NCBI GenBank assembly: GCA_027306995.1
Contig: DAHUXS010000014.1
Span: 1-64,000 of the forward strand
Reading direction: 5' to 3'
DNA length: 64,000 nucleotides
DNA from: Lysobacter sp.
GTDB taxonomy: Bacteria > Pseudomonadota > Gammaproteobacteria > Xanthomonadales > Xanthomonadaceae
The notes under the pieces are model-generated. The model ran no database searches. It had not been told where the DNA came from and worked only from the letters and a program-made list of their open reading frames with translations. Each line of letters opens with the position of its first letter. Position 1 is the first letter of the stretch. Shown here piece after piece: positions 1 through 2,188 of the stretch. The translations under genes and the position numbers were made by a program.

Positions 1-1175
1 CGCAGGCAGTCGTAGCTGTGCAGCGCGTCGAGCTTGCGCACCAATTCGTCGTGGAACTCGCGGGCGTTGGGCGCCTTGTGGAAATACAGATAACCGCCGA
101 ACAACTCGTCGCTGCCCTCGCCCGACAGCACCATCTTCACCCCCATCGCCTTGATCCGTCGCGCCAGCAGGAACATCGGCGTCGACGCGCGGATGGTGGT
201 GACGTCGTAGGTTTCGATGTGGCGGATCACTTCCGGCAGCGCATCCAGTCCTTCCGCGAAGGTGTAGGTGAACCCGTGGTGCACGGTCCCCAGCGCATCG
301 GCGGCGATCTGCGCGGCGGCGAGATCGGGCGACCCTTCCAGGCCGATGGCGAAACTGTGCAGGCGCGGCCACCACGCTTCGCCGCGATCGTCATCCTCGA
401 TGCGCTGGCGCGCGAATTTCGCCGCGCAGGCGGCGACCAGCGACGAGTCCAGTCCACCCGACAGCAGCACGCCATAGGGCACGTCGCTCATCAACTGGCG
501 ATGCACCGCGCGCTCGAAAGCAGTGCGCAATTCCGCCTTGTCGGCGGCGACGCCTTCCACTGCATCGTATTCGCGCCAAGCCCGCTTGTACCAGCGCACC
601 GGTTCGCCACGCGTGCTGTCGTATACGTGTCCCGGCGGGAATGCCGCAACGTCCTCGCACACGCGAGCCAGCGCCTTCATCTCCGACGCCACCCACACCC
701 GGCCGTCGGCGTCGTGGCCCCAGTACAACGGACAGATGCCCATGTGGTCGCGGGCGATGATGAAGCGCTTCGCTTGCTCATCCCACAACGCGAACGCGAA
801 GATGCCGTTGAGCCGGCCGAGCCAGGTTTCCGCCGATTCGCCATCGCGATACAGCGCGTTGATCACTTCGCAGTCCGAACCGGTCTGGAACGCGTAGGGA
901 TGCGCGAGGCGACGCTCGAGATCGCGGTGGTTGTAGATCTCGCCGTTCACCGCCAGCACCAGTCCACCATCACCGGAACGGATCGGCTGCGCGCCGCCGG
1001 CGGGATCGACGATGGCCAGGCGTTCGTGGACCAGCAAGGCATTGGCGCTGGCGTGCACGCCGCTCCAGTCGGGGCCGCGATGGCGCTGGCGCGCCGACAG
1101 CGAAAGCGCCAGCGGTCGCAGGGGTTGCAGGTCCGCGCCGGGGCGGAGGTCGAAGACGCCGAGAATCGAACACAT
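1..1175 (-). CDS. asnB: asparagine synthase (glutamine-hydrolysing), 5' part, open at window edge
   Basis: This gene encodes the ATP-dependent enzyme that turns aspartate into asparagine using glutamine-derived ammonia in the cytosol. About 391 residues are visible; the family is usually about 550, so the C-terminus lies outside the window. The protein starts MCSILGVFD, placing the glutaminase nucleophile at Cys2. The class II amidotransferase domain fills the first 200 residues, including NGEIYNH. The synthetase domain opens with the ATP-binding loop LLSGGLDSS. The ATG was chosen because the nucleophilic Cys must follow the initiator Met, and a GGAG lies just upstream. The gene has no stop before the edge. 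The mRNA leader upstream carries a short ORF rich in Asn codons and a terminator hairpin, so expression is probably attenuated according to asparagine supply. Identification is firm. Confidence 0.95.
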   Translation of the reverse strand, partial: MCSILGVFDLRPGADLQPLRPLALSLSARQRHRGPDWSGVHASANALLVHERLAIVDPAGGAQPIRSGDGGLVLAVNGEIYNHRDLERRLAHPYAFQTGSDCEVINALYRDGESAETWLGRLNGIFAFALWDEQAKRFIIARDHMGICPLYWGHDADGRVWVASEMKALARVCEDVAAFPPGHVYDSTRGEPVRWYKRAWREYDAVEGVAADKAELRTAFERAVHRQLMSDVPYGVLLSGGLDSSLVAACAAKFARQRIEDDDRGEAWWPRLHSFAIGLEGSPDLAAAQIAADALGTVHHGFTYTFAEGLDALPEVIRHIETYDVTTIRASTPMFLLARRIKAMGVKMVLSGEGSDELFGGYLYFHKAPNAREFHDELVRKLDALHSYDCL

Positions 1176-1226
1176 GGTGAAGCTCCTGGATGTTTGAAGA
1201 CACGAAGTTTTGAAAGGCGCATAACG

Positions 1227-1256
1227 AAAAAGCCCGCACGTTTCGGTGCGGGCTTT
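1227..1256 (-). terminator. intrinsic terminator in the asnB leader (attenuator)
   Basis: An 11-bp perfect stem (1229-1239 with 1246-1256, arms GTGCGGGCTTT and its complement) has a 6-nt loop. Read on the minus strand it is followed by five Ts at 1231-1227. On the plus strand no T-run follows, so it belongs to the asnB direction. It sits upstream of asnB, after the Asn leader ORF, so it can only act as a premature terminator. A GCGGGT segment near the leader stop could pair with GCCCGC in the ascending arm and act as antiterminator. Confidence 0.8.
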
Positions 1257-1282
1257 CGGGTGTTGAGCGTGTGACGCGCGCG

Positions 1283-1345
1283 CTAACGACCGACCCGCGG
1301 GGGGCTGGCGTTATTGCGATTATTGATGGCGAAGGCGCGGGTCAT
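1283..1345 (-). CDS. asparagine-rich leader peptide of asnB
   Basis: This 20-residue ORF, MTRAFAINNRNNASPPRVGR, ends in TAG 107 nt before the asnB start. Four of five consecutive codons are Asn (AAT AAT CGC AAT AAC). An AAGG/AGG stretch precedes the ATG at suitable spacing. It is followed by a GC-rich segment and then a hairpin with a T-run ahead of asnB. This is the layout of classical ribosome-mediated attenuators such as trp or his leaders, here tuned to asparagine. When charged tRNA-Asn is scarce, a ribosome would stall on the Asn codons and let an antiterminator form. The ORF, codons and hairpin are seen directly; the mechanism is inference. Confidence 0.75.
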   Translation of the reverse strand: MTRAFAINNRNNASPPRVGR

Positions 1346-1379
1346 GGCCTGACCTTACCCCAGTTTTGTCGCAGTGCGC

Positions 1380-1401
1380 AACGGTTGCGCCAGCAACCGT
1401 T
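1380..1401. repeat. perfect inverted repeat between asnB leader and sigma gene
   Basis: Arms AACGGTTGC and GCAACCGTT (9 bp, perfect) flank a 4-nt spacer GCCA. The element lies between the divergent asnB leader and the ECF sigma promoter, about 35 nt upstream of the leader peptide start. Its position suits an operator for one or both genes. It has no T-run on either side, so it is not an intrinsic terminator. No binding protein can be named. Confidence 0.5.
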
Positions 1402-1471: not shown

Positions 1472-2188
1472 ATGTCGAACATCCGCATCGCCACCGATTA
1501 CGCTTCGGCATCGCTCGCCGAACTGGTGGCGCTGGCCCGCGCCGGCGAGCGCGAGGCCTATCGCCACATCATGCAGCGCTCCAACCAGCGCCTGTTCCGC
1601 ACTGCCCGCGCGGTCCTGAACGACGATGCCGAAGCGGAAGACGCCCTCCAGGATGCCTACACCAGCGCGTTCGCGGCACTCGGCGATTTCCGTGGCGATG
1701 CCGAAGTCACCACCTGGCTCACCCGCATCGTCCTCAACGCCTGCTATCAGCGCCTGCGTGCTCGCCACCCGGCAGTCGACCTCGAACAGGCCGAAGCCGC
1801 GCATGACGATACCCACATCCTGCAATTCCCGACGAGGTACGGCATGGAAGATCCGGCAAATTCCGCCGCGCGGGTGGAGATCCGCGGACTGATCGAATCC
1901 GCAGTCGGCATGTTGCCCGAAGCATTCCGCGTCGTTTTCGTGCTGCGCGACATCGAAGGTTGCAGCGTCGAGGAAACCGCACAGGCGCTGGGCATCCGCG
2001 AGGAAACGGTGAAGACGCGCCTGCACCGCGCCCGCCGGCAATTGCGCGACGCCCTGCACGACAGCGTCGAAACCTCGCTGCACGACGCCTTCCCCTTCCT
2101 CGGCCCGCGCTGTGCGCGCCTCACGGCCGCGGTGATGCAACGACTCGAATCCGATCCCCGCGATCCGCCCACTCCAGGAGACCACTGA
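1472..2188 (+). CDS. ECF-type RNA polymerase sigma factor
   Basis: The 238-aa product is an extracytoplasmic-function sigma factor. Region 2 spans about residues 28-97 (LFRTARAVLNDDAEAEDALQ and TTWLTRIVLNACYQRLRAR). Region 4 spans about 140-195, with the LPEAFRVVFVLRDIEG entry and a helix-turn-helix ending TVKTRLHRARRQLR. No region 3 is present, as expected for the class. An extra C-terminal tail of about 40 residues follows region 4. GGAGGA lies 8 nt before the ATG. The next gene starts 1 nt after the stop, and two small membrane proteins are co-transcribed. No zinc-binding anti-sigma protein is recognisable, so either neighbour might do that job (inference). An RpoE-like promoter upstream hints at autoregulation. 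Confidence 0.88.
   Translation: MSNIRIATDYASASLAELVALARAGEREAYRHIMQRSNQRLFRTARAVLNDDAEAEDALQDAYTSAFAALGDFRGDAEVTTWLTRIVLNACYQRLRARHPAVDLEQAEAAHDDTHILQFPTRYGMEDPANSAARVEIRGLIESAVGMLPEAFRVVFVLRDIEGCSVEETAQALGIREETVKTRLHRARRQLRDALHDSVETSLHDAFPFLGPRCARLTAAVMQRLESDPRDPPTPGDH

Follow-up and report, generated by a model that had tools for sequence, protein, structure and literature searches.

How is asnB controlled at a locus where the gene is preceded, on its own strand, by a very short reading frame rich in asparagine codons and by a terminator-like hairpin? The locus lies at one end of the window, by which we mean the whole 64-kb (64,000-nucleotide) stretch of DNA analysed; window and contig both begin within asnB. 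Amino-acid attenuators follow a common plan: an ORF in which codons for the end product abound, a terminator before the first structural gene, and an antiterminator formed between a leader segment and the ascending terminator arm. Comparison of related genomes leads us to regard the element as, very probably, a ribosome-mediated attenuator that controls asnB transcription by sensing asparagine via charged tRNA-Asn. Its parts are as follows, with the basis of the assignment in brackets.

3..1175, minus strand: asnB, glutamine-hydrolysing asparagine synthase B, 5' part, starting at 1175 (NF006949, 600 bits, cut-off 499)
1183..1187, minus strand: AGGAG, Shine-Dalgarno sequence of asnB (sequence)
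1227..1231, minus strand: terminator U-run (sequence)
1229..1256, minus strand: intrinsic terminator hairpin, 11-bp perfect stem and 6-nt loop (ascending arm 1256-1246, descending arm 1239-1229)
1248..1253, minus strand: GCCCGC, part of the ascending terminator arm and able to pair instead with 1298-1293 (folding, covariation)
1257..1259, minus strand: CCG, predicted extension of the antiterminator through CGG at 1292-1290 (folding)
1283..1345, minus strand: leader ORF of 20 codons, MTRAFAINNRNNASPPRVGR and stop (sequence; conserved upstream of asnB)
1293..1298, minus strand: GCGGGT antiterminator segment within the last codons of the leader ORF (alignment, folding, covariation)
1310..1324, minus strand: control codons AAT AAT CGC AAT AAC, Asn Asn Arg Asn Asn (sequence)
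1352..1357, minus strand: predicted -10 box TAAGGT, separated by 6 nt from the leader ATG, whose A is the predicted +1
1376..1381, minus strand: predicted -35 box TTGCGC, with an 18-nt spacer to the -10 box
1472-2188, plus strand: divergent sigma-factor gene, the next gene upstream of the leader

The leader ORF (ATG ACC CGC GCC TTC GCC ATC AAT AAT CGC AAT AAC ... TAG, 1345-1283) has Asn at codons 8, 9, 11 and 12. A GC-rich stretch separates it from the hairpin, which reads AAAGCCCGCAC-CGAAAC-GTGCGGGCTTT (1256-1229) and runs into the U-run. The earlier note had described a 20-codon leader with four Asn in five codons and a perfect 11-bp terminator with a T-run, both on the asnB strand; coordinates and letters agree with that description, and GCGGGT (1298-1293) and GCCCGC (1253-1248) are both present where it had placed them.

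Several trivial origins could be set aside. Among all ORFs of 8-60 codons on both strands of the window, the leader is the only one with at least four Asn in five codons, and 20 first-order Markov windows contained no Asn-rich ORFs of the leader type. Together, these results rule out chance as the origin of leader and terminator. A perfect stem of at least 8 bp with T within 120 nt follows 9 of the 845 distinct short-ORF stops of the window. Because the leader sits between asnB and the divergent sigma-factor gene, no other gene's 3' end accounts for the terminator, and its attribution to the neighbour was rejected. NCBIfam and Pfam searches with four leaders gave no match to a known peptide family. 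Rfam likewise provided no family at threshold, the best being Thr_leader (26.3 bits versus 55), and Leu_leader scored 19.8 bits against a gathering threshold of 50. A consensus scan of the window for promoters and terminators missed both the terminator and the promoter of the leader; its single match is a plus-strand site at 1397-1418.

The earlier note had suggested looking in related asnB upstream regions for a conserved short ORF with Asn codons plus a terminator, and alignment across the family bears this out. We denote the window's family as f1, a second and a third family as f12 and f2, and two sister families as f9 and f7. asnB was detected in 13 of the 17 genomes of the window's genus, counting the own genome, and in 184 of the 198 genomes of the family. 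An ORF with at least three Asn in eight codons, within 520 nt upstream of asnB, is present at 137 of 140 f1, 28 of 29 f12 and 3 of 3 f2 loci (168 of 172 in total); with at least four Asn in eight codons the count is 155 of 172. As controls, the same filter was passed by 1 of the 172 antisense strands and by none of 90 hisG-upstream pieces. A further 43 upstream regions were taken from elsewhere: 19 from f9, 19 from f7 and one each from f5, f10, f4, f150 and the divergent f1 asnB of genome G056. Asn-rich ORFs precede asnB in 0 of 19 of the f9 cases, 1 of 19 of the f7 cases and 0 of 5 of the single places; the divergent f1 gene (G056, L222) is without a leader. A class-wide search found a close asnB in 4 of 229 genomes, namely the own genome, two others of f1 and one of f150.

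The four loci that fail the filter are L041, L155, L173 and L204. The leader of L041 sits further upstream and that of L155 is diluted, as judged by eye; when 600 nt of upstream sequence were considered, the first 40 f1 loci all had a leader, L041 included. The f1 sample of 140 consists of 40 loci and 100 of 116 further matches listed (left out were G039, G131, G033, G137, G106, G201, G112, G166, G197, G189, G192, G075, G177, G203, G205 and G188). G056 came from the order set and stands outside the 140, and L002, L015 and L016 were omitted as fragments or other genes. The 29 f12 places represent every f12 genome with an asnB match: 15 entered via the RNA model described below and 14 via asnB alone, and 13 of the latter 14 have the leader.

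In f7, which is otherwise mostly without a leader, the lone Asn-rich case (L253, also L366, genome G465) has the leader MFAIYNTINTTNNRLLRSAGSF and a 12-bp terminator, 75 nt before asnB; by eye, this leader is not leaderless in the sense considered below. When f7 was examined again (22 usable loci, mostly from the same genomes; 2 of 26 loci gave no start), this case came up once more, together with a weak filter pass, L363, 31 nt before asnB. Separately, 29 of 30 f1 loci (L372-L401) have no ORF with four His in eight codons in the 1500 nt preceding hisG, and the His-rich ORF at L383 looks fortuitous, so that f1 his genes seem to be without a classical attenuator beside hisG.

The terminator, too, is kept across the family. 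A stem of at least nine pairs (G-U allowed) lies within 110 nt of all 137 f1 leaders, and the 8-nt tail window contains at least five T in 127 of them and fewer in 10; at L030 the hairpin finder picked another stem. An RNA covariance model built from 35 leaders matches, at E <= 0.01, 346 of the 395 family genomes, a count that includes the training sequences. In the order it matches 96 of 200 genomes, where weak matches need not be an asnB leader.

What is being conserved in the ORF? Asn makes up 26.4% of the last 20 leader codons, a figure raised by the filter. AAC and AAT occur 445 and 439 times, compared with seven Lys codons. The equal use of the two Asn codons and the near absence of Lys suggest that selection acts on the amino acid and hence on translation. 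This bears on the idea that an RNA-binding protein or a ligand, not the ribosome, toggles the two hairpins and that the ORF is incidental. Conservation of the alternative pairing as RNA would agree with such a switch, but selection on translation and the lack of any Rfam family at threshold speak against it, and we consider it extremely improbable. It might also be argued that the attenuator is ribosome-dependent yet senses general translation or another amino acid such as Arg, which ranks second in frequency among the residues (16.9% of the last 20 codons) and lies within the Asn run in many leaders. However, any GC-rich frame has many Arg and Ala codons, and Asn at 26.4% is not common there; moreover, the gene that follows is one for asparagine synthesis, and the genome has AsnRS. 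Another control signal is thus most unlikely, and asparagine sensing is the reading pursued here.

The remainder of the peptide differs between lineages (NNNNRNNASLPRAGD, NNNNRNNLRANNRARPMRVCD, NNNNRANNNANRWRARA) while the Asn richness persists. Within lineages the C-terminal stretch (NNRNNASLPRAGD or RANNRARPMRVCD) changes little. In alignment A1 (35 leaders, excluding L026, L027, L030, L042 and L043), most invariant columns fall in the leader segment GCRGG and in the terminator arms. The segment resembles the descending terminator arm and can substitute for it in pairing: GCGGG sits just before the leader stop and pairs with the ascending arm of the terminator.

The antiterminator pairing of GCGGGT with GCCCGC proposed in the earlier note gains from comparison, as leader segment and terminator arm change together. 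Among 136 f1 leaders (L030, where another stem had been taken, was excluded), 100 combine GCGGG with CCCGC and 15 combine GCAGG with CCTGC, with no crosswise combination; of the rest, 13 lack an exact motif and eight were left unclassed by pattern (128 classed). In A1, the pair 47-114 is G-C in 29 leaders, A-U in six and broken in none, and two of the seven pairs drawn are open, 50-111 in 6 of 35 leaders and 51-110 in 27 of 35. In three of the six A-U cases the terminator partner is merely a G-U wobble, so in these cases the leader tracks the ascending arm more closely than the terminator does. Compared with 500 shuffles of A1, the number of paired cells and the covariation score exceed all 500, and two of five covariation measures lie within the shuffled range, being reached by 309 and 480 of the 500 shuffles.

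Duplex energies agree with these patterns. The mean for a leader with its own arm is -16.9 kcal/mol, compared with -14.8 kcal/mol with arms of other genera and -9.7 kcal/mol for the stretch of 36 nt that lies further upstream; the own duplex beats the swapped mean in 93 of 136 leaders. In a permutation with 38 genus representatives, 0 of 2000 arrangements were as good, a test that ignores kinship and in which the GCAGG genera may be one clade. The leader-arm match reaches 13 bp in some lineages (GGCCGATGCGGGT with ACCCGCATCGGCC). In the window it is short, with 6 bp ending in G-U plus 3 bp. Overall, covariation supports a conserved, mutually exclusive antiterminator for a five-base core.

These data also bear on a function in trans, whereby the leader peptide, or the terminated RNA as an sRNA, acts elsewhere, the terminator makes a short transcript and asnB merely lies downstream. 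The C-terminal stretch, well conserved within lineages, could be taken in this sense, and a leader peptide with trans functions, peTrpL, is described in PMC7298713. However, Asn richness is kept between lineages as much of the other peptide changes, the conserved C-terminal codons overlap the pairing segment that changes with the terminator, and all the listed leaders lie upstream of asnB (weak RNA-model matches elsewhere set aside). We therefore regard a trans function as very unlikely compared with attenuation of asnB itself.

How the two structures might exclude each other was explored by folding seven representatives with a ribosome mask that began 15 nt before the A-site codon and ended 11 nt beyond it. 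The earlier note had called for folds with exclusive structures, and these were obtained for one state of the RNA only. While the descending arm is unmade and the ribosome stands at the last Asn codon, the antiterminator forms in six of seven leaders (not in L037); in the window it reaches -22.7 kcal/mol, versus -4.0 kcal/mol for a ribosome on the stop codon. Once the RNA is complete, the terminator mostly wins. It prevails in five of seven leaders for a stall at the first Asn codon (the window included; L132 and L181 are the exceptions), and in 7/7 both for a stall at the last Asn codon and for a ribosome at the stop codon. Partial folds of this last state often have the ascending arm paired elsewhere (7, 9, 6, 2, 2, 8 and 7 pairs), while the full fold always gives the terminator. 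In L181 the stop lies too far downstream, and a ribosome there leaves the segment unmasked. Since the terminator usually outcompetes the antiterminator in complete RNA, the switch would have to be kinetic and cotranscriptional. Judging from these models, lineages may differ in the details of switching.

The layout upstream of the ORF adds a feature that is new relative to the earlier note. In 54 f1 leaders with a single in-frame ATG, T at -35 is found in 93%, A at -11 in 89% and T at -7 in 87%. With the best start chosen, the layout TTGnnn-N16-19-nAnnnT-N5-7-start fits 139 of 168 leaders, compared with 4 of 168 for out-of-frame start codons, and the gap between hexamer and start is 6 nt in 106 of the 139. 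By family, the strict layout holds for 133 of 137 f1, 5 of 28 f12 and 1 of 3 f2 leaders. In f12 and f2 the hexamers are of types such as TCTAGT, and TTGC or a close form is kept. It might be asked if the -10 box is instead a Shine-Dalgarno sequence. This was rejected: the fixed bases are A at -11 and T at -7, and the middle varies. An SD-like 4-mer precedes 47 of the 139 leaders, mostly because the hexamer contains AGGA; among leaders whose hexamer has no AGGA the count is 7 of 99, compared with 162 of 168 at asnB starts.

The leader ORF is thus predicted to be leaderless, with transcription beginning at its own ATG. A transcription start downstream of the leader ORF, which the earlier note had considered fatal to an attenuator, finds no support in a sequence with a conserved predicted promoter just upstream of the leader ATG. 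There is a precedent in the trpL leader of Sinorhizobium (S.) meliloti, where the transcript begins with the leader ATG, according to PMC7298713. The asnB leader would resemble it in starting at the ATG, its 5' end being predicted from promoter spacing. Unlike the asnB leader, S. meliloti trpL senses Trp, belongs to an alphaproteobacterium and has a 5' end reported in PMC7298713.

From these features we infer transcription start, stalling, termination and read-through as follows. RNA polymerase would start at the leader ATG or within a base or two of it, and a ribosome would load on the 5' AUG. With plentiful Asn-tRNA, the ribosome would reach the leader stop and cover GCGGG in the last codons; the GC-rich hairpin with its U-run would then form and transcription would end before asnB. 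With scarce Asn-tRNA, the ribosome would stall in Asn-Asn-Arg-Asn-Asn, about 12-26 nt upstream of the GCGGGT segment. The free GCGGGT could then pair with GCCCGC once the ascending arm is made, and the polymerase would read into asnB.

The enzymes of asparagine supply fit such a sensor. AsnRS (TIGR00457) is above cut-off in 20 of 21 genomes, own included. AsnA was found in one of 31 genomes, the own genome giving no match. GatB, needed for the indirect Asn-tRNA route, was found in 4 of 21 genomes (three over cut-off), all from other families of the order; it was found in 0 of 13 genomes of the window's genus, the own genome again giving no match. With AsnRS present and AsnA and GatB not found, charged tRNA-Asn should report free asparagine made by AsnB, and the lack of a GatB match speaks for the asparagine-sensing reading. 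asnB is the only asparagine synthetase type found in the own genome. A second asnB-like frame of that genome, outside the window (G000:C8:24814-25320), is 90% identical over residues 223-391 and broken off at a contig end, with the upstream region absent from that contig. Four of the 17 genomes of the genus (G005, G006, G007 and G014) gave no asnB, AsnA or GatB match and all have AsnRS; from gene content, they are predicted to need outside asparagine.

The mechanism is known in kind. The asnB leader shares the codon-rich ORF, the terminator and the antiterminator with the trp, his, leu, thr, phe and ilv leaders (Rfam RF00506 Thr_leader, RF00512 Leu_leader, RF00513 Trp_leader), but differs in having Asn as the control amino acid and in matching no Rfam family at threshold. 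Moreover, no separate pause hairpin is established, and the pairing segment lies inside the leader ORF. Gram-positive bacteria have T-box riboswitches for Asn, which read tRNA-Asn charging before an amino-acid gene; T-boxes bind the tRNA directly and are without a leader ORF. Both systems would read the charging of tRNA-Asn, and the asnB element does have a leader ORF and again corresponds to no Rfam family at threshold. Asparagine specificity is apparently undescribed. A search of the open literature for an asparagine or asnB attenuator found no earlier description; the main text of PMC2965389 contains neither 'asparagine' nor 'asnB', and 'asparagine' does not occur in the accessible part of PMC1262725. 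If the reading is correct, asparagine is one more amino acid to which leader-peptide attenuators of Proteobacteria respond, and control of asparagine synthesis can be predicted for Xanthomonas, Stenotrophomonas, Lysobacter and their relatives. The predicted leaderless start offers a test bed for coupling between the first ribosome and RNA polymerase on leaderless mRNA, and the covariance model allows the element to be annotated by machine.

To see which named bacteria carry the element, the best 80 of 569 asnB loci from named genomes were scored by script for leader and hairpin, and 51 of these 80 have both. Carriers among the matches listed include Xanthomonas euroxanthea, X. cannabis, X. arboricola, Stenotrophomonas maltophilia, S. 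nematodicola, Pseudoxanthomonas kalamensis, Lysobacter, Luteimonas, Thermomonas haemolytica and Arenimonas malthae, as well as Rhodanobacter, Dyella, Fulvimonas and a Frateuria MAG. Matching leader peptides suggest that f12 is Rhodanobacteraceae. One of the 51, Shewanella abyssi, looks fortuitous, its leader being 414 nt away; a Rubrivirga MAG, described below, also belongs to the 51. The other 29 of the best 80 fail. Among them are the genes of Aeromonas, Vibrio, Rheinheimera, Alkalimonas and the remaining Shewanella, but also, contrary to the general pattern, that of Coralloluteibacterium (L323), which has no leader. The MAG 'Proteobacteria bacterium SZAS-108' (L312) has a leader peptide identical to that of the window. 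Three records with other-phylum labels, L293 (Rhodococcus sp. RD6.2), L280 and L310, have an asnB 74-82% identical to the query and no leader; they are either mislabelled records or cases of horizontal transfer.

A broader proposal can be put forward only tentatively, as something we think somewhat more doubtful than probable: that Asn is a so far unlisted control amino acid, that the attenuator, with leaderless loading of the first ribosome on the 5' AUG, is ancestral to the Xanthomonadaceae/Rhodanobacteraceae lineage, and that such attenuators have arisen more than once (f7 L253, Rubrivirga MAG L339). In the Rubrivirga MAG, an Asn-rich ORF (IRNLTNANRN) is followed by a 13-bp GC hairpin and eight T, just upstream of asnB at 1501, and possibly represents an independently evolved Asn attenuator outside Proteobacteria.
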